Assembly (NCBI GenBank): GCA_963924555.1
Contig: OZ004582.1
Coordinates: 620,001 to 684,000, forward strand
From: Crambe crambe
Taxonomy: Eukaryota; Porifera; Demospongiae; Poecilosclerida; Crambeidae
DNA length: 64,000 nt
Direction of reading: 5' to 3'
Shown here: positions 1,428-44,829 of the stretch, one piece after another
Layout: every line of letters begins with the position of its first letter
Numbering within the stretch: the stretch's first letter is position 1
Notes under the pieces: generated by a model
Databases searched by the model: none
Told to the model about the DNA's origin: nothing
Seen by the model: the letters and a program-made list of their open reading frames with translations, nothing else
Program-made: the position numbers and the translations under genes

Positions 1428-2060
1428 GGCCCTAGCCCTCCACCCTGGGTGAGGGTGTGCAGTTGGAAGTGGCACTATAGTTAGTTGCTTACCTTCTGGG
1501 AGGGGGTGCGCAGCTGGAGGTGGCACTGGATGATGTAATCGTAAGATCATGAAATGTTTTATTTATAGTTGCTTACCTCCTGGGAGACCGAGGGGGCGTG
1601 CAGTAGGTGGTACTGGATGACGTAATTGTAAGAGTAATGAAATATGTTATCTATAGTTGCTTACCTTCTGGGAGGGGGTGCGCAGCTGGAGGTGGCACTG
1701 GATATAAGAGTAATGAAATATGTTATCTATGTATAATTCTTTACCTTCTGGGAGGGGGCACACAGCTGGAGGTGGCGCTGGATGATGTAATTGTATGAGT
1801 AATGAAATTATCTTTAGTTACTTACCTTCTGGGAGGGGGTGTGCAATGGGAGGTGGGGCGCGCAGCTGGAGGTGGCACTGGATGATGCGATTGTATGAGT
1901 AATGAAATTGTTATCTTTAGTTACTTACCTTCTGGGAGGGGGTGTGCAAAGGGAGGTGGCACTGGATGATATAATTGTAAGATCGTGATATGTGTTATGT
2001 ATAGCTAGTTAGTTGCTTACCTTTTGGGAGGGGGTGTGCAGCTGGAGGTGGCACTGGTTG
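1428..2060 (-). repeat. Tandem array A of micro-exon-like repeat units
   Basis: About seven units of 75-100 bp. On the plus strand each has ttac, then about 33 nt starting cttctgggagggg and ending ggaggtggca, then ctggat. Read on the minus strand this is CAG, a proline-rich 33-nt segment ending CCCAGAAG, then GTAAG, that is a consensus 3' splice site, a frame-preserving short exon and a consensus 5' splice site. Cores start near 1495, 1577 (36 nt), 1666, 1747, 1826 (52 nt, internal duplication), 1928 and 2022. It may be a tandem exon array or simply a minisatellite containing splice-like words. Confidence 0.75.
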
Positions 2061-2173
2061 AGATTAGTGGAGTAGTTCCAAACTGATAGTGCTACGTAGT
2101 CAGAGAAAGATGAAAGAGTAAATATGGTTGACACTGAACACATTTTTTTTGTACAAATAGCTGCAGAGCACTG

Positions 2174-2204
2174 CACTGTTAAAACGGCAGTATGTATTAC
2201 ATAC
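2174..2204 (+). repeat. Left terminal inverted repeat of the CACTA element
   Basis: Starts CACTGTTAAAACGGCAG and ends with a complete GTATG-N5-CATAC site. It pairs with 8479-8509 with five mismatches and no gaps. Confidence 0.85.
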
Positions 2205-2467
2205 CCAAAATGTATGACCATCATTCCAAATAGTGATCATACTATTGGTATGAAATAGTGATAGTATGAAGTACATACAATTATGGTATGATCATCATTC
2301 CTCTTAGGGCTATGTAAATAGGTTAGTATGAAATCCATACCCTTACAGTATGTAGATCATACATGTTTCATCATACCTTTGGTAGTTGTGGTATGATCAT
2401 GGGTTAGTATGAACTCCATACCTAGTATTCAGTATGTTCATCATACTTACTTGTATGTCCTACATAC
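2190..2467. promoter_or_regulatory. Left subterminal palindrome cluster, GTATG-N5-CATAC
   Basis: Seven perfect copies of GTATG, any five bases, CATAC start at 2190, 2264, 2326, 2348, 2407, 2432 and 2453. Imperfect half-matching copies are at 2212, 2248, 2286 and 2391. The spacer sequence varies while both half-sites are fixed, as expected for a dimeric DNA-binding site. CACTA elements typically carry subterminal repeats bound by an element protein; that role here is inferred. Confidence 0.85.
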
Positions 2468-2507
2468 CAAGCATGCTACATGCAGATTAGTGAACCACAA
2501 TTTTAGT

Positions 2508-5500
2508 TCAAAAGACATGATACTTCAGGTTGATAAAGTTCTTGCTACATGTGGTGTCAAAAGATTTGTGCAATGATAATCTATGGTAGTCAACAAAATC
2601 TTGGTGGTGGCAAATCAAGAATTCATTTTGAAGTTGCTCAACTTCGTAGGAATTAAAGTGCCTATTAAAAGTACTAGCAATATATGGTGTTAAGACAAAA
2701 AGACAATCACCGCATGTGGTGACAAGAATGTCCAAGATCTTGCCAAATATTGGGTCACCATTTGAGATTCCACAAATCAGAACGTGTAAATAATAATATA
2801 AAAGATATCTCCACACATAATGCATAGACATGTAACTAAGCTACCTGTGTAGTTCAGACTCAGAATTCAATTCTGGAGAATATTGTAGTAAAGCCAAAGA
2901 ATACTCCAATTCATCAACAACAACACTATGAGCTATAAAACAAGATAAATAAGTCAGTGGTATACTAACAGCTAGCAAATACTAACCTGGACCATAAGAA
3001 TTATCCTTTCCTAAGTAGGTGATGCTGCATGTCATTTTGTAGCACATGTAGCGTTGATAGCGGGTAGCTACAGTTTTCTCCAAGTTGATAAAGTTACCAA
3101 GGGTCTGGGCAATTTTTTTGAAAAATTTATGTCTTGCCTCATAGCGCATGCACCAATGTCTCACTAAGGGACCACATCTGAAGTATAAGAATTAACAAGA
3201 CTCTATTAGATAGCTACATAACAAGTCTAGACATTATGTAGCTACGTACATACCTTTTTATCCATGAAGGCATATGAATAAGATAATGCATTTTAGGTGT
3301 TAATGGCCTTTCAGGATAGAGGTCAGTGAATACTACGAGGTAATCTTCAATGAGGGTCTGAAGGTAGTCGACTTTATCTTCTGTGATTACCGGAGCAAAG
3401 AGAAACTCCATTATTCTAAGGAGACACAAGAAATTCTCCCACTTTTCATCACTTTCAGGAACTAAATCTCCAATAATAAGTGGCAAGAATCGTCCCAAGC
3501 ACCATGCCTGTGAAGCTGAAATAAAAATTGCCAGCCTTTATCATAAGCATGTTTGTTATGGTCCTCCCAAACAGACAAACTAGCAAAAAATAATAGCTAA
3601 TAAAAAAATGGAAAATGAGCAAGCTACTGAAACAAAATAATTAATAAAAACAAAATAAAAAACTACAACAAAAATACCAACATGCATGCTAGCTTTTCTG
3701 GTTTTCCTTACAATAATGAGTGTGCACCATTTGGAATTTCAGTTGGGTCCACTAGCTATATGCAATAGCTGATAACTCACATGATTGCTTAACATTGTTT
3801 CTTGTTGTTGATGATAATGTGTCAAGGCTAATAGGTGTTGGTTTATTGGATGAGTCTGCTGGACCATAGTTAAACGACTGTATTCTGCTGTTCAATGTAT
3901 TAAGTGAAATTATTTTCTCCTCTATGACCAAGTAAGCCAAAAGCCACTTTAGACTATATGTTGATGTAGAGGACCATCAAGGCTGGAACAATGTTCATTA
4001 TATATTTCACGAGTCCGCAACATGAATTCCTTTTCATGAAACTACATTATTATAACACAGTTTCTGATAAATACCTTACTATACTGTAAAGAAATTACCT
4101 CTGTCTGCATATCAGAATCTATAGCCATGCAAGATCTGCACTTTCGAAATGCTGATGTGAGTGACTTGTAACCTCCTATCAGGTTTGCAGCAGGATTGTC
4201 GGCTGATACAATTATTATAGTTCCCCGAAGATGGGATACTTGTCCATCAATAATGAATGGTACTCCAGAGGCCTATGCCGATAAATAGAAAGTAGCTAGT
4301 TTGTGTGAATACTAGAGTTCATTGTTCTTACACTTTCCAGAAGTTTAATATCCTTCATAAATGGTTTCAAAATTTCATTTGCTGAATATTTTTGAACCAG
4401 TGTGTGCCGAACTACAGTAACAAGTTGGATAGTGTGAAGAAATTTTGGATCAATATTACACAGTGAGAAGTAGAAAATGCCTAAATAAATAGATAAATAA
4501 ATAATAAATAAACAAATAAATAAATAAATAAATAATACTTTCTTACCAAGTTTATGAATAGATGCTTTTGATCCAAGGGGATTACAAACTTCCAATTCAT
4601 CGTAGTACAATGCTATCTGCAGGGCACAAGGGTGATCCTTGAATAGGTCATGATTCTTGTATTGTTCGCTGTCACAATAATCTCCCCATTTTCGATCCGA
4701 AAGTTGGTGGGAGTTAAATATCTACAATCATGGCAAAAGTTAATATTCAACATACAAAAGTGTATAGCTAATACCTGGTCACAGATATCATCACATTTTA
4801 ATAGAGCTTGTAAGGAATGTAACAAAGGGACGTCATAGCAATAGTCATCTCTTCCTAACCGTCTTTTAACAGGTGGCTAAAATGGAAGCAATATTAATAT
4901 TATTCATAGTCATGCAATAATTATTGTTCGCTCACCACATAATTACAGTGTTCTAGAAAAAATTTTTCTTGCTTATATTGGCTTTCCAAGCCTTCAAAGG
5001 GATTGGTAATACCAGACACTGTGAAGTGACTTAGCACTTCCGAAATTTCATCGGCAGTCAGCTTATTAAGCCCTTCCAAACTATTTTTTACACTCATCCC
5101 CAAGTTTTCAACAGTTTGATCCAAAAATTGTCTGGTGTCTTGTAGAATAATATCCAATGTTGTTTGAGGAAGTTTTCTTCCATCCCTCATCTTCATAATG
5201 AATTGTGCAGCTGCCAAAGAAGGATGTTGCTGTTCTAAACATGACGGACTAGTAGAAGTAGGATCAGCTGTGAAGCTGTCTGAGCTTTCCATAGCCTCAC
5301 TGGGCACTGCACTCCCGATCGTATCATTTGAGGAAGTGATCATACAACCAGGGTCACTAGGCTTCAAAACATGTTTGTGCTTACGATACACATGCTGCCT
5401 CAAACTTTCATAAGACTTTATAGTGGAAGGGCATCCTTCAATCCCACATCTGACTGGACCTTCAAAATGCGGGTGTGCTTCTCTAATATGGCACATAATT

Positions 5501-5550
5501 TCAGCCAGAGTTTTCCTGGCGTACCTACTGCAGATATTACACTCATACAT
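2508..5550 (-). pseudogene. C2H2 zinc-finger transposase of the CACTA element, internally deleted
   Basis: A multi-exon gene read from 5550 down. Exon 1 (5550-4936) has two C2H2 fingers (CNIC..H..H and CGIEGC..H..KH) and ends at GTGAGC. Further exons with consensus sites lie at about 4876-4776, 4721-4547 (ending NPLGSKASIHKLG), 4480-4332, 4272-4099 (with VSADNPAAN and KCRSCM), 4041-3781, 3515-3254 (LTPKMHYLIHMPSW), 3178-2987 (HWCMRYEARHKFFK), 2932-2845 and about 2808-2508, where it ends NLKYHVF. The conserved order matches a zinc-finger transposase family widespread in sponges, cnidarians and fish. Near 3960-3972 the reading jumps from LDGPL to YSLKWLL with a frame change; the segment that family members carry between them is missing, so the catalytic core is probably destroyed. 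Family assignment is from memory; exon borders are visual. Confidence 0.75.
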
Positions 5551-5669
5551 GATTAGCTAGCCCACCAAATGCGCGCTCTTTCCGTTGCGCATGGGCAATG
5601 AATGATCGAAGCAGCGGGATGTGCAGCAGCTGCTTGCCAGAGACCAGATGGTGGAGTGCTCTATTCATC
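5551..5669. promoter_or_regulatory. Shared bidirectional promoter region of the CACTA genes
   Basis: Only about 119 bp separates the transposase start (5550, minus) from the SAM gene start (5670, plus). The interval is locally GC-richer (around gcgcgctctttccgttgcgc) than its surroundings. No TATA box is obvious. Divergent arrangement implies co-expression; this is inference. Confidence 0.45.
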
Positions 5670-8320
5670 ATGGCCTTTCTCGAAAAAGATGCTGATAAAT
5701 TCGCAGAATGGCTAAGGGAGGAAGGTTTTAAAGAGGAAATTGTTAGTATTTTTCAAGGTAAGAGCAGCTTAGCTATAGAAATTAGATAGCTATAGCTGTA
5801 TCATGTGTCTCTTCCAGACAATGGAGTTGATGGGGAGAGTTTTTTGCTCCTTACCGAAGCTGATCTTGCTGAAATGATTAAAGCAGTTGGTATAAGATGA
5901 AAATTGATAGTAAAACTAAATGCTCTGAAGAAAGTTGATAAAAAGACAATAGAGGTGAGCAAGGTCTTCTCTCTTTGGTCAGCCATGTTTAATAGTGAAG
6001 GTAATAATTACTACCCCATGCAATACTTAATATGTAGGTCAGTGAAGAATGTGCTATCAAGTATGACTTAGTCTCGAGTGATAGTGATCGTGGATGTTAC
6101 TCACTGGAAGATGTAAGTTTATAAAAGATAGTGACCCTCCTCTTAAAAGAGGCATACCTGCTAGCCATTCATTCATATCCAAGAACAGGGATGTTTATTA
6201 CTCAGCAAAAAAAATCTATAGATATAGCAAGGCTGATTATTAGCTATGATCTTTATGCAGCAGTCAGCTGAAGATGATGAGCTACATGATTCTGCTCTCA
6301 AGGAAGAATATCAGACAAGGATGAGGACAATGTCAAGGTAAATACTGCCTTTATATACAATGATAAATGAACACATTCCTTCCATTCATGTACGTAAACC
6401 AAGACTGAAATCATAAAAAAGGAAGTTGCTTTTACCCATTTGAAGAAAAATGTGCTCTCAAAAAGGAAACAGGAACCACCTTTCTCTCATCCATTCGAGC
6501 TACCACGCAATTACCCTGCCTTTGTCATGAGTGAATTGGCTCATAATAGATTATCAGGAAGAGCAAGGACAAAATTTATATCCAGTGTAGCATCTGCTAT
6601 TTTTAAGGAAAAAAGTTGCCCTAAGGATGAGGAATACAGACATGTTGGATCACAAATTGTCAATGAATATCCTTTCCTTAAGTCACTGTCAGGATCAGGT
6701 TATGTAAGTGAAAGATTATAATTATGTAAAGTTAGCAGATTTTGCTGGTGCATTGGGTAATATTAAGCCTACCACAATCGTATCAACCCTCTTCCTGTGT
6801 ATGTTATGTCCATATCTCTTAACTTCTTGCTTATTGCAGGGCTACTTAGTAGAAGCACTCAAAGATAAGATGAAATATTTGAGAAATTCTAAACCTCGTA
6901 TAAAGTCTGAAAATAGTAATGAGATGTCCGAGCCACCAGCTAAGAAGATAAAGAAAGAGTTTACACAAATTCCACATATTCCTGCGGCACCACACATTCC
7001 AAAAGGAGAAGATGAGGCATCATATCTTAGGCACTTGAAAGTTCTTCAACAAGAAGAAAAAAAGATGTCCCCAAACAAGCAAGTGATTGCTGATCTCATG
7101 ACTAGGACTTTCCCTTTTCGAAGGAAGGAGATACTGGAAGAGCCATCATCAATGGACCAACTTCTGAAAAAATTTCCATCTCTAAAAAGAACTGAACAGG
7201 TAACTAATGATCTCAAGAGTATTATAAACCCATGGCCCATATATACATTTGTTTTGTTTCAGATTCTTGATGAGTTGAATCGTATTTTAGAGAAGGATGC
7301 TAAAACAGAGCTTCACGATATTTGGTTGAATACTATCCCAAAAATTTTTGAGGTTGCTCGTGATGAAACAAACTCTCATGTACAGTCCCTCCTTGAGGAT
7401 TGCAAGAAAGATCTCTCTGAAGGTATGTAGTTAGCGACTTAGAGTGCATTTCCTAAAGTATACAAAAGTTGTTTTGATTCAGTTTGTCATGATATGCCTC
7501 AGTGCATTTTGTGTAGCATTAACATGTAGCTTAATGTATGTGTGTACAGCCACATATTCATGTTCATGTATGTAAGTAATGTAACTCAAATTCTTTCTTT
7601 TCAGAGTCGAAATCTATCTTGGCTCTGCTGATAGTTATTTATCTCTTGCCAGACACTAGGACCAAAATTGATCCAAGCAGAGTCATTATATTCTTACCGG
7701 TAATTTGATATTATGTGTAATACTTTCATACTAGTGAGGGACTAAAAAAATATTGTACCCAAACCATTTGCAGTATACTAATGAATTCTGGTTGTTTACC
7801 TGATAGTTTGCTTGGTCTCTTTTTTTAATGAAAGGTCACTGTCCTCATTGATAGCTTCCTGACCATGGTCAAGGAATTTTTTACCTGTTACACATACATA
7901 AGTACTCTTCACAACCCCCCTCCCCGAAAAAACACAAAATCAACCAAAAAACAACAACAACAAAAATAAAAACAAAAACGGAATTAAGCTAGCTATAACT
8001 AATTGAACCTTCTCTTTTAGGAATTTGCTGACGTGTCCAAGGAGGCAGCTGATGTTAACCCTCAGCCTGTATGTATGGTGAGGGGAACAGCAACTAAAGT
8101 AAAAGATGCCGTTCTCTCGATTGAAGGAACTGTTTTGTCAAAAATAAACCCAATTGACATTCCTATAGTATTATTTGCTGCTTATTATGTTTTCAACATT
8201 AAGTACAAGAATGGTACTGCAAATTTTTATTCTTTTTTAGAGGTGATTTTTATAAATGCTACCCCTCCAAAACGTGCAAAACTTAACCATTTTATAAACA
8301 TGATAGAACATGTTATTTGA
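5670..8320 (+). pseudogene. SAM-domain protein, SAMD3-like family, CACTA accessory gene
   Basis: Nine candidate exons: 5670-5757, 5818-5954, 6038-6112, 6261-6337, about 6442-6703, 6840-7199, 7263-7422, 7605-7699 and 8021-8320, most with GT/AG borders. Exons 1-2 encode an N-terminal SAM fold (KFAEWLREEGFKEEIVSIF, then LLLTEADLAEMIKAVGIR). An in-frame TGA at 5898-5900 interrupts the last SAM helix. The middle carries a conserved block (YPAFVMSELA, then YRHVGSQIVNEYPFLK, then SGSGY) and a basic stretch PPAKKIKKEF that could act as a nuclear signal. The C-terminus (FAAYYVFNIKYKNG) matches the tail of SAMD3-like proteins. SAM domains mediate protein or RNA/DNA contacts. The phase of the exon 4/5 join does not fit, another sign of decay or an unseen splice site. 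Its role in transposition is inferred from context. Confidence 0.75.
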
Positions 8321-8343
8321 TGTATTATTGTATTATTATTATA

Positions 8344-8493
8344 GTATGTAATTCATACAAAATTGCATGTAATGCATACCAATGAGGTGGTATGTTTATC
8401 ATACCGATATCTGAAAGTATGTGCTTCATACTTATACAAGGAATGCTCAGTGTAACAGGACAAATCATACCTATTTCGGTATGAAATGCATAC
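8344..8493. promoter_or_regulatory. Right subterminal palindrome cluster, GTATG-N5-CATAC
   Basis: Four perfect copies start at 8344, 8390, 8417 and 8479, and one copy with a single mismatch (GCATG) at 8365. The last overlaps the right terminal inverted repeat, mirroring the left end. Confidence 0.85.
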
Positions 8494-8509
8494 TTCCTTT
8501 TTTACAGTG
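8479..8509 (-). repeat. Right terminal inverted repeat of the CACTA element
   Basis: Ends TTTTTTACAGTG; the reverse complement begins CACTGTAAAAAAGG. Mismatches to the left end are at positions 7, 12, 15, 22 and 26. Confidence 0.85.
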
Positions 8510-9151
8510 TGGAATTGTAAGGAAACAGTTCCAAAGTTGCAAGCAGCTGATTATAAAATGAAAAGAAGCACTGGACTCAGGAGTCAAACAAAGGAAAGAG
8601 TGAGTATAACATACCTTGTTGAACAAACAGCAGAAGACCTTGACCTTGTGTCTCAGAAGAGTGACTGTTACTTAATTTATATGATTAAGAGGTAGATAGA
8701 AGGATTGCACTTTAAAAGCAGCTGCGAAGCTAGCACGTGCGCGTGCAACGCGCGCGCATTGCATACTACGTAATACGCACGCACAGGCTTCAAAATGGCA
8801 GATGAAAAGTAGCTAGTCAGTGGTGGAGGAAGCAGATTTACATTGGTCAGGCAGGTGGAGACTATAACATTATAGTCACACAATATTATATAGCTATTCC
8901 ATAAAAGTACAAAAATGACTAAAAGTTACCAAAAATATGCTGGCGATGCTCACTGTTTCTCACAAATTCAGTGGCAGATTGAGTAAGGTCAATGTTATCC
9001 AATAATGCCTTATAAATATTCAGTAGCATGAGGTGATTAACTTAACAAAATATAGTGCTTCTTAAGCCAGGAACCAATAGTAGATTGTTTTTGAGCAGAT
9101 AATCGCTTTGCCATGCTTCAGGGTCAGTGGATATTTGGGCCAATGCTATAT
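8510..9151. other. Non-coding flank right of the CACTA element
   Basis: Contains short open frames without recognisable motifs and a CpG/purine-pyrimidine-rich patch near 8735-8780 (gcgcgtgcaacgcgcgcgca). Nothing further can be supported. Confidence 0.5.
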
Positions 9152-9214
9152 CAATAATCATGAAGGATGTGCCGAGCCACCGCAGGCGGCTCGGCACATC
9201 CTTCATGATTATTG
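9152..9214. repeat. Perfect 27-bp inverted repeat (hairpin)
   Basis: Arms 9152-9178 and 9188-9214 are perfectly complementary with a 9-nt loop (9179-9187). The inner arm is GC-rich (GTGCCGAGCC) in AT-rich surroundings. It could be a palindromic recombination footprint, a folded-back short element or a small-RNA hairpin. Confidence 0.9.
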
Positions 9215-16418: not shown

Positions 16419-16450
16419 AATTATACTTCGTGAGACTCGCTGCATGTTCC

Positions 16451-16615
16451 ACTGGTAAATATTTCATATTTGCACAAACCACAGCAAAATCATTTCGTAG
16501 CTCCTAATTAAACGATAGTGATAAATAGACTTAAAAAAAAAAATAAAAATAATTTTATAATACGGTATAGTCAGCATCACTATAAAAGGACAGCCACGAG
16601 GACCAAATCCCGCTT
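16451..16615 (+). repeat. DIRS left inverted terminal repeat with TATA box
   Basis: It pairs with 21226-21390 over 165 bp. It includes tataaaag at 16581-16588, about 150 bp before the gag-like start codon, which could be the core promoter. The right copy carries the same box in opposite orientation. Confidence 0.9.
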
Positions 16616-21225: not shown

Positions 21226-21390
21226 AAGCGGGATTTGGTCCTCGTGGCTGTCCTTTTATAGTGATGCTGACTATACCGTATTATAAAATTATTTTTATTT
21301 TTTTTTTTAAGTCTATTTATCACTATCGTTTAATTAGGAGCTACGAAATGATTTTGCTGTGGTTTGTGCAAATATGAAATATTTACCAGT
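21226..21390 (-). repeat. DIRS right inverted terminal repeat
   Basis: Reverse complement of 16451-16615 across the full 165 bp. Confidence 0.9.
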
Positions 21391-21465
21391 GTAACATTTG
21401 CTCGTCTCACTCATATAATCCCAACTTGACTTCGGGCCCTTCGGGCCCTCGCCAAATTGGCAATT

Positions 21466-27803: not shown

Positions 27804-27806
27804 ATA

Positions 27807-28117
27807 CAAATAAGGGGAAAAGCATTTCGTGAAATGAAAAAAAGATGTAGGGATGACCACTGCTCAAAAAAGTAAGGAAACAAGAAGGATGGAAATGGGA
27901 TCAATCTTTGTTCTGTATATCCAGCCAACAATCCCTACATATACACACATTACTACGCTATAATCTGAAGTTACCTGACGTATATGTAGGGATCGTTGGC
28001 TGGATATACAGAACAAAGATTGATCCCATTTCCATCCTTCTTGTTTCCTTACTTTTTTGAGCAGTGGTCATCCCTACATCTTTTTTTCATTTCACGAAAT
28101 GCTTTTTCCCTTACTTG
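27807..28117. mobile_element. Fold-back element with ~137-bp arms
   Basis: The arms 27807-27943 and 27981-28117 are nearly identical in inverted orientation, with a 37-bp spacer. Inside the arms are the motif gtagggatg and its complement. It begins four bases after the palindrome at 27739-27803. It is non-coding; it may give rise to double-stranded RNA if transcribed. Confidence 0.9.
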
Positions 28118-28622
28118 TTCCTGGTCTTTTTTCTTCTCTTTTATGGTTTTAGCTATGATTAGAGTTCATTCTTCTATGTGTATGCAGGGACAGATGAAAG
28201 AAGTTCTCCAATAGCATACCAGCCCAATCATTTATCGAGTCAAGGTGTTGTGTTGTTGAGCCATACTTGGAGGTCGAAGATGCTGAAATAGAGTCTACCG
28301 TGGTGAATCTAAATCCCCGAATCGATACAGTAGTCTATCATCAGCTAGAGCTAGCTAGCTAGCTAGCTAGAGACAGCTGAGTAATATTATGATTTCGAAT
28401 AATTGGATATTCAAATACATGCGCATGCGTATTATAGAAAAGATGGCTTCCTAATTGAATTAGTCGAGTGCTGTGCTCCATAGTGTCTCCTTTTTCATCG
28501 ACTCTTTCGAGGATCAACGAGTAGAAAAGATCGTAGTTGGTAGAATTTGGAGTGGATTTGTCCAGAAATCATGGCTGTAGCTTGAGTGGTTCGAGAGATA
28601 TGGTTGTCTAAGAAAAATAATA

Positions 28623-43079: not shown

Positions 43080-44285
43080 CTAGTACTTCAGCCAGCAAGG
43101 TCATATGGACCAATCAGATTCATGCTGACATCATTGCCTGCAAATCTGATTGGTCCATGTTTCCTCAGTACAGATTCTCATCCTACACATAGTCAGTACT
43201 TAGCTCTGTACAGTTGGCTCACTTCACCATGCCAGTGCCTCCAACCTGTCAGTGTGAACTTTCATAGGCTTTAAATCTGAAGGACAGTCCTTAATTTTTA
43301 GACTTTGTCCTTCGTCCTTCAATGGCTAGCTACTGCCATATTGTTTGTCCTTAAAGTTGTCTAGATATGAGAACTCAAAACTGTAAGCTTGAAGTTGTAG
43401 TTACAGCACATTATAATTATTATGGCCAATATGCAATTCAGGCTCTGCTTGGCATGTGCAAGGTCAGCTGCTCTATTTATAGCCGTGATGTCAGTGTTGT
43501 GTATGCACTGCCAGAGCTGGAGCAAGCTCATTCATTTGTACTGGTACGGCCATGCATCTGGGGGAAGCCCTCCAGTAAAGAATTTAATTGATTCGATTTC
43601 TATCTGGTATGATCTAGGCAATGCCACGTACCAACTTATAAGTTATTCAAATTGCATACACACATGCTGAATGGTGGTACAGCCATGGCCATACCGTGCC
43701 TCTGGCCATGACTACTTGCAAATTGACATGTATAAAATTATAACACACAATTTATTCCATTAATATGGGTGTGGTTGGGCGTGGTTATGTCAATTAGGGG
43801 CGTGATGATTGAATTATTAGTTTGTGTCCTTAAAGCATTTTTAGAAAAGTTGGAGCCTACGAACTTTGATTTCAGGCTCCCATTTTCTCTAGCGATTCAG
43901 TTACTTAATGCTATAATGTGAAATGTATAAGTTAAATTTCTTGAGTAGTTACTTTTAGACAGATATTTAAGTAAAAATACTTTAGGAGTTTGCCATGCAC
44001 ACAGGTCATTAGCTATACATTGCTGTTGTTGTAAAATTTGATATTGAACTAATTTTCTTTAATTGTTGATCATCAGCACTACGTACCCCCCCCCCCCCCC
44101 CCAAACAGGGACCGGTAATACTGTATTACATACTCAAATTAATGTAACATTCTTACTTAAATCTCTGCAATCCAGTGCCATTGCCATATCCCGCTCCCCC
44201 TCCCACCAAGTATCCCAACTGGTAATACTGATACAAATCCAGTGCCACCACCTGCCCCCCCCCCCCCCCCCCCCCCTCCCAACTT
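43080..44285. other. Non-coding stretch with short inverted repeats and poly-C runs
   Basis: An inverted pair ggaccaatcagatt / aatctgattggtcc lies at about 43107-43156. A block near 43228 (gtgcctccaacctgtcag) and one near 43850 (gttggagcctacgaactttg) resemble diverged ends of the family at 12668-12880. Poly-C runs are at about 44086-44102 and 44255-44276. No gene is supported. Confidence 0.5.
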
Positions 44286-44460
44286 GTACTATAACTGCAT
44301 GCAAGAGAGTGAACTTAGTGAAGTAATCCCTTACCATCACCAAGTACAAGATACTATTCTACTTCACTCCCATGAGGGCAAAGGGAGAATAGTATCTCGT
44401 ACTTGGTGATGAGTAAGGGATTACTTCACTAGTTCACTCTCTTGCATGCAGTTATAGTAC
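44286..44460. repeat. Inverted repeat with 75-nt arms
   Basis: Arms 44286-44360 and 44386-44460 pair with few mismatches (gtactataactgcatgc at the base, aagtaatccctta inside), with a 25-nt loop. Adjacent poly-C tracts suggest it is part of a larger MITE related to the one at 24697-25190. Confidence 0.85.
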
Positions 44461-44829
44461 ATATTCCAGCTAGATTTTGGGGCCATAGCTACTGCTTTGA
44501 TGTTGCAGTGCAGCTAGATTTTTGGGGCATAATGAAGCTGCAGTTGTAGCTATGTGCTAAATTTGGGGCCATCCCTACTTCACATTTTTATTACTAAGAA
44601 ATTTTTTGCATTCATAGCTAAAAGTCATGGTAGAAACTGTTAATATATGTCACAGCTGCAGCGGGAAAAACGATTACAGAGAGTAAGGTTGTAAGGTTTT
44701 TAGCATTAATAATCTATCATTTGATGCTGTCAGCTTTCTAATGATATTCTTGCTAACATGTTTATTAAAGCGACCACATTTCATTTAGAAGAAGACATCA
44801 AACAGATATTGCTGTGACTCAGACTGCCC

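Follow-up and report, generated by a model that had tools for sequence, protein, structure and literature searches.

A probable CACTA-like transposon insertion in the sponge Crambe crambe with a transposase gene head-to-head with a SAM-domain gene, and the recurrence of this gene pair across the genome

The DNA analysed here, referred to as the window, is a stretch of 64,000 nucleotides from the demosponge Crambe crambe (assembly GCA_963924555.1, contig OZ004582.1, positions 620,001 to 684,000 of the forward strand), which is C3:620001-684000 in the 143-Mb genome of 119 contigs that we searched. Near its left end lies a transposon insertion that begins with CACTG and ends with CAGTG, and that encloses two multi-exon genes running outward from a short intergenic stretch, one for a predicted transposase and the other for a protein with an N-terminal SAM domain. 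The features of this locus, numbered from the first letter of the window, are as follows.

2174..8509, unstranded: complete transposon insertion, 6336 bp, CACTG...CAGTG, based on six unoccupied host-repeat sites and a 26/31 terminal match
2172..2173, unstranded: left TG of the 2-bp target duplication, based on a single TG in 5/6 empty sites and TA in the sixth
8510..8511, unstranded: right TG of the 2-bp target duplication, on the same basis
2174..2205, plus strand: left terminal inverted repeat, transposase side, consisting of CACTGTTAAAACGGCA and the palindrome GTATGTATTACATAC
8478..8509, minus strand: right terminal inverted repeat, SAM side
2190..2467, unstranded: seven copies of the palindrome GTATGN5CATAC, left end
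8344..8493, unstranded: four copies of the palindrome GTATGN5CATAC, right end
2511..5550, minus strand: transposase gene, multi-exon, with its ATG at 5550 and its last exon ending near 2511
5551..5669, unstranded: intergenic stretch of 119 bp separating the predicted start codons of the two genes, a putative two-way promoter
5670..8320, plus strand: SAM-domain gene, multi-exon, with its ATG at 5670 and its end near 8320; exon borders putative in part

The borders of the insertion were read from unoccupied sites. The element lies in a host repeat, and in all six fetched copies of that repeat the two sequences that border the window element directly abut, with GCACTG joined to GAATTG in five copies and GCACTA joined to GAATTG in one. 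Since the flanks are joined in these unoccupied copies, the insert comprises exactly positions 2174 to 8509 together with a 2-bp TG duplication; the unit inserts whole and duplicates 2 bp of its target. The preliminary description, made from the letters of the window alone, had already placed the borders there, with CACTG ends, inverted repeats matching at 26 of 31 bases, a TG on either side and two divergent multi-exon genes in between, for a C2H2 transposase and a SAMD3-like protein. The empty sites bear out these borders to the base, the gene pair was recovered with ATGs at 5550 and 5670, the further related copies that it anticipated do exist in the genome, and its proposal that copies would reveal borders and empty sites was confirmed both in the window (TG) and in a second family (TA; family D, below).

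The repeat at the right flank has 35 matches in the genome, counting the window and its duplicate, and four of them are only 48 bp long. Around the element, this host repeat covers window positions 1446-2173 and 8510-8709, and many of the 35 matches are 96-100% identical; a tandem array with units of about 85 bp lies upstream of the element. The sole near-identical second copy of the element is found at C3:3296650, and both of its flanks match those of the window at 98-99.8%, so that it was rejected as an independent insertion. The shared flanks are most easily explained by duplication of a segment that carried the same insertion, and not by a second jump, although the flank is itself a repeat and this is therefore no proof.

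The terminal bases of the element match at 26/31 positions (27/32 when one more base is counted). Of all CACT-ended pairs in the window with a spacing of 1-12 kb, just two score higher, each with 31/31, and both sit within one 172-bp inverted repeat at 16444/21397. This repeat (16444-16615 and 21226-21397), with arms that are 99% identical and about 4.6 kb apart, is perhaps another transposon. The whole window has 11 copies of the palindrome GTATGN5CATAC, all of them in the ends of the element, seven on the left and four on the right. In the window element, which we assign to family A, the subterminal motif reaches 5.6-6.1 per 100 bp at the ends vs. 0.24, a more than 20-fold enrichment.

The predicted transposase of the window has two N-terminal C2H2-like fingers, followed by YYDELEVCNPLGS and by ADN, CRSC and MRYEA motifs. 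When aligned to a relative at locus L044, which is a single open frame of 638 amino acids, it lacks a segment in the middle of the protein; this segment carries the motif MHDxLEG in relatives, and it is present in the duplicate copy (L004) and absent from the window. The order of motifs, YYD..(A/G)DN..CxxC..MHDxLEG..RxEA, is kept among the relatives. With the catalytic residues assigned by motif only, the first D (YYD), the second D (ADN, replaced by GDN in lineage I) and CxxC are found in 6/6 lineages covered, and RxEA in 4/4; MHDxLEG occurs in families A (in the duplicate), B, C, D and I, with the variant MHNILEG in K.

The SAM protein consists of an N-terminal SAM domain followed by conserved middle and C-terminal blocks. 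Pfam recognizes SAM_2 in the window protein (E=3.2e-8; PF07647, 34 bits vs. a cut-off of 20.5, with X placed at the stop), whereas the SAM_1 match of the family D protein, at 19.1 bits, lies under its threshold of 23. Of the SAMD3-like character given to this protein in the preliminary description, the N-terminal SAM domain is thereby confirmed. NCBIfam returned no family for either of the two proteins. Exon 2 of the window SAM gene is interrupted by an in-frame TGA, which the match of the duplicated copy does not show. With both genes damaged, the window copy is decayed and almost certainly no longer mobile.

To what extent the two genes belong together was assessed with five queries, which gave 77 exon matches for the window SAM protein, 103 for the window transposase, 90 for the family C SAM protein, 76 for the family D SAM protein and 118 for the family D transposase. 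These were grouped into 54 transposase and 74 SAM clusters, both of which are lower bounds as the searches score best candidates only; some match rows were left out of the cluster counts, and these fall inside counted clusters. A SAM cluster lies divergently upstream, on the opposite strand and within 10 kb, in 39 of the 54 transposase clusters. The other three arrangements are nearly empty: 0 for SAM upstream on the same strand, 2 for downstream on the opposite strand and 0 for downstream on the same strand. About 0.15 divergent neighbours would be expected by chance, vs. the 39 observed, and a chance neighbourhood of two genes was thus rejected. Fewer queries (the window pair and two other SAM queries) gave the same picture, with 31/42 divergent vs. 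0, 1 and 0. Thus the co-occurrence of SAM and transposase homologues foreseen in the preliminary description holds, and the pair recurs in one arrangement in families of this genome that lie far apart in sequence.

Direct tblastn on six probed pieces found a divergent transposase in five, L055 being the exception, and added three SAM clusters (L051, L052 and L053) to the paired ones, of which there are at least 42 among the 74. At L013 only transposase fragments lie beside the SAM gene. Among the first 14 ten-kb loci fetched, ten hold both genes and four hold SAM matches only (L040, L041, L042 and L049). L040 was considered as an intact host SAM gene and rejected, since neither of the two frames of at least 110 amino acids listed there is a full SAM protein. 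At L049 (C3:5528001-5538000), long frames of 596 and 869 amino acids neighbour the SAM homologue, perhaps belonging to a nested element, and the paired transposase of this homologue is about 9 kb off. A relative of the window element at C1:6294400-6303413 (L003, L012-L029) retains a partial left end and SAM exons spread over about 8.5 kb.

Complete elements were mapped in two further families. In family D, with the SAM-side end CACTGTTAAAAATGAGGTGTA and the transposase-side end CACAGTAAAAAATGAGGTGTA, four SAM-side and five transposase-side ends were found, and 4/4 of the SAM-side ends face a transposase-side end and enclose both genes with it, while one transposase-side end stands alone. The copies with both ends are located on C9, on C3, on C16, with a partial deletion of the transposase, and on C1, where the span is 13 kb. 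Their flanks differ from copy to copy, and the flanking dinucleotides are TA on both sides in 3/4 copies, and AT and TA in the C1 copy. The flanks of the C3 copy (L048) have matches on the minus strand of C12, at 3255097-3254925 for the left one (86%) and at 3254926-3254777 for the right one (100%). These matches overlap by exactly 2 bp, which corresponds to an unoccupied site with a TA duplication, and this site was read directly in L062. The left flank of this insertion (L048:1141-1200) resembles an integrase-type frame by eye, so the target was perhaps another mobile element. In family C, both ends enclose both genes in the two mapped copies (L043 and a copy on C8), with TA on both sides in each. 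In family B, the copies L037 and L039 (C13:222001 and C13:278001) are 56 kb apart, share long flanks and apparently reflect a local duplication.

The ends of these families follow a common plan. Their terminal pentamers are CACTG in the window, CACTG and CACAG in family D, and CACAG in family C, and all seven ends scanned start with CACWGTWAAAA. Five of the seven (both ends of A, both of C and the transposase side of D) carry a palindrome particular to their family, beginning at position 16-18. The subterminal motif of family D reaches 2.6-3.1 per 100 bp at the ends vs. 0.22-0.24, a more than 10-fold enrichment. The start codons of the head-to-head genes are 119 bp apart in family A, and the corresponding distances in families D and C are 121 bp and 85 bp.

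The pairing is spread over divergent lineages. Outside a close group formed by F, G, H and K, 39 lineage pairs differ by 0.49-0.73 in the transposase and by 0.55-0.84 in the SAM protein, and SAM proteins of these lineages are 16-45% identical. These distances indicate at least seven deeply diverged lineages, and those of the SAM protein exclude a single recent capture. The SAM, middle and C-terminal blocks are still recognisable across lineages. Transposase and SAM distances are correlated, with r = 0.88 for ten lineages (0/2000 permutations) and r = 0.59 for eight (16/20000).

Ratios of nonsynonymous to synonymous substitution (dN/dS) were computed by projecting codons through distant alignments, and the values for the window vs. 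its duplicate (transposase) and for L047 vs. L048 (SAM) were set aside as they conflict with the near-identity of the DNA. For the SAM gene, dN/dS is 0.13 for F-K and 0.09 for G-K, where synonymous sites are saturated, 0.38 for F-H and 0.28 for G-H; for the transposase, it is 0.23 for both F-K and G-K and 0.75 for F-G.

Taken together, we propose that the window unit is a decayed two-gene cut-and-paste transposon of CACTA-like type, and that the SAM protein is the element's own second protein, perhaps with an end-binding role like that of TnpA; we give this reading a probability of roughly 0.7. The preliminary description had left the SAM gene as either cargo or the element's own regulator, and the breadth of the pairing across relatives favours a protein of the element over cargo. 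SAM proteins may self-associate. In the mechanism that we envisage, one short two-way promoter would make both proteins and thereby couple their supply, the transposase would recognise, cut and join the element ends, and the SAM protein would self-associate and bind or bridge the palindrome-bearing ends, as TnpA does in plant En/Spm. It is plausible that the SAM protein also regulates the common promoter.

Several observations weigh against this reading. With respect to the SAM protein, Pfam scans identified no DNA-binding domain. With respect to the ends, two of the seven depart from the palindrome plan: the best palindrome of family B starts at position 30, and none passed the scan in the SAM end of family D, although an imperfect one is visible there; moreover, no subterminal repeat array comparable to those of A and D was found in family C with the motifs tried. 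With respect to the transposase, the domain matches fall below curated cut-offs, as seen for Transposase_21 (PF02992) in L044 (E=0.021, 14.5 bits vs. 28.6), for DUF4218 in the window protein (E=0.0034, 17.7 bits vs. 27) and for C2H2 models on the N-terminus of L044 (E of about 0.0005-0.0025), and scans of three more lineages (B, I and K) gave no CACTA-domain match of the Transposase_21/DUF4218 type. An HxxxH motif, HDVMHD, is seen in family C only (L043 and L044); in A (the duplicate), B, D, I and K the first H is lacking at the aligned site, which has xDxMHD or PDIMHN instead, the comparison being confined to this site among possible H(3-4)H positions.

The pairing and the divergence data also contain evidence on this side. 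Fifteen of the 54 transposase clusters are unpaired, and so are 35 of the 74 SAM clusters by search, or 32 of 74 after direct tblastn. The distance correlation fades without the close lineages (r = 0.47 for seven, 66/5040; r = 0.31 for six, 117/720), so that it is mainly the constancy of the arrangement that speaks for long co-inheritance. Finally, SAM dN/dS is near neutral for F-G (0.79, 251 codons) and for two J pairs (0.65 and 0.67). Constraint on the SAM protein is therefore suggested between lineages, whereas among recent copies dN/dS is near neutral in several pairs.

Alternatively, the SAM protein might be intrinsic to the element and serve a different end, countering host silencing or hijacking chromatin proteins of the host, for instance by entering Polycomb-type SAM polymers, in which case it would not be needed for cut-and-paste. 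We consider this rather unlikely, though worth keeping in view. A search of PDB with the SAM protein gave nine relatives, all of them weak SAM-domain matches (E 0.004-0.76), and these include the chromatin proteins L3MBTL3, Atherin and Polyhomeotic; the same weak range also holds the non-chromatin SAM proteins ANKS6, Bicaudal-C and SMSr. There is a precedent for an accessory gene in many transposon lineages, namely TET/JBP in fungi (PMC12730594). The strict head-to-head position fits the countering of silencing and a TnpA-like role alike, and does not discriminate between them.

It is very improbable that the SAM gene was captured from the host and travels as cargo, or that the pair is a host gene neighbourhood hit by a transposon. 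SAM-only loci would fit such an origin, as the unpaired SAM clusters are those in which no transposase has been found so far, and in the C1 derivative no transposase was found between the retained partial left end and the SAM gene. However, 21 of the 35 clusters unpaired by search are single-row clusters, mostly fragments, 39 of the 54 transposase clusters hold SAM in a single arrangement, and both genes lie inside mapped ends at different sites in families A, C and D, which argues against both cargo and host neighbourhood. For the lineage as a whole, cargo is largely contradicted. Equally improbable is a SAM gene that has lost its role and persists as a mostly neutral remnant through recent copies, which would agree with the damage to both genes of the window copy, with a dN/dS of 0.57 between the window and its C1 relative (A-A2, 400 codons) and with the near-neutral F-G and J pairs, but not with protein blocks that remain recognisable between lineages or with the low F-K and G-K ratios, saturated as their synonymous sites are.

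Plant CACTA elements of the En/Spm type make a 3-bp target duplication and carry subterminal repeats. The element proposed here, with its SAM protein as a second component, resembles En/Spm in having CACT-type ends, subterminal repeats, two element proteins and, below the curated cut-offs, weak Transposase_21-like and DUF4218-like traces. It differs in that the ends are CACTG or CACAG, the duplication is 2 bp instead of 3 bp, and the proteins come from two divergent genes rather than from splicing of one transcription unit. The CACTA-type reading of the preliminary description is supported with some refinements: the ends are CACWG, the duplication is 2 bp and not the 3 bp of plants, and the elements show the sequence hallmarks of the superfamily only weakly or in part.

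Published accounts provide further comparisons. In En/Spm, TnpA as well as TnpD is essential, and the two proteins interact (PMC1636069). Animal TRC elements, described in 2006, have CCC ends, 2-bp duplications, inverted repeats, a Transposase_21 domain and alternative splicing, and a TnpA-like role was assigned by the authors to the splice product SmTRC-PrA, which has no detectable relatives (PMC1636069). The Crambe element is similar to SmTRC1/TRC as an animal CACTA relative with inverted repeats and a 2-bp duplication, but has CACWG instead of CCC ends, and TRC makes several proteins by alternative splicing; the available part of that account does not mention a SAM protein in TRC elements. 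Another animal CACTA family also has 2-bp duplications (PMC4298943). Two motifs between the second D and the last E, CxxC and H(3-4)H, together with CA..TG ends and duplications of 2-5 bp, define the CMCT clade; ESTA, which is fungal in that account, is characterised by TA duplications (PMC12730594). Our elements agree with CMC/CMCT in the CxxC after the second D (6/6 lineages), in their 5'-CA..TG-3' ends and in a 2-bp duplication within the 2-5-bp range, while the H(3-4)H motif is matched in family C only. In relation to ESTA, the duplication is TA in families C and D (3/4 D copies, with AT/TA in the fourth), and TG in the window. No element with a SAM protein within a transposon was found in the literature searched, which comprised titles and the starts of abstracts, and an earlier cataloguing in Repbase is possible; a search for papers on a second open reading frame in animal CMC-EnSpm elements gave none. 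In the genome studied here, a second protein with a SAM domain is retained in at least seven deeply diverged lineages, in a fixed head-to-head position with the transposase.

Elsewhere in the window, an almost perfect hairpin of 30 bp with a loop of three bases occupies positions 9152-9214, positions 1-300 and 406-705 are a direct 300-bp duplication (99% identical), and two long self-inverted stretches (27806-28118 and 44285-44461) are 90-92% identical to their own reverse complements.

It is tempting to extend the proposal to an entire lineage of CACTA-like elements in animals, which might be a two-protein machine with a polymerising SAM protein, made from a common two-way promoter, as the counterpart of TnpA, such that many "SAMD3-like" animal genes would be this transposon gene, either free-standing or domesticated. 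We put this forward tentatively, as a possibility that we would sooner doubt than assume. The SAM protein is a concrete candidate for an animal transposase partner protein, and the arrangement suggests a sorting rule for animal SAMD3-like gene models, in which a divergent transposase next door would mark a transposon gene, and a model without one would be a possible domesticated host gene.

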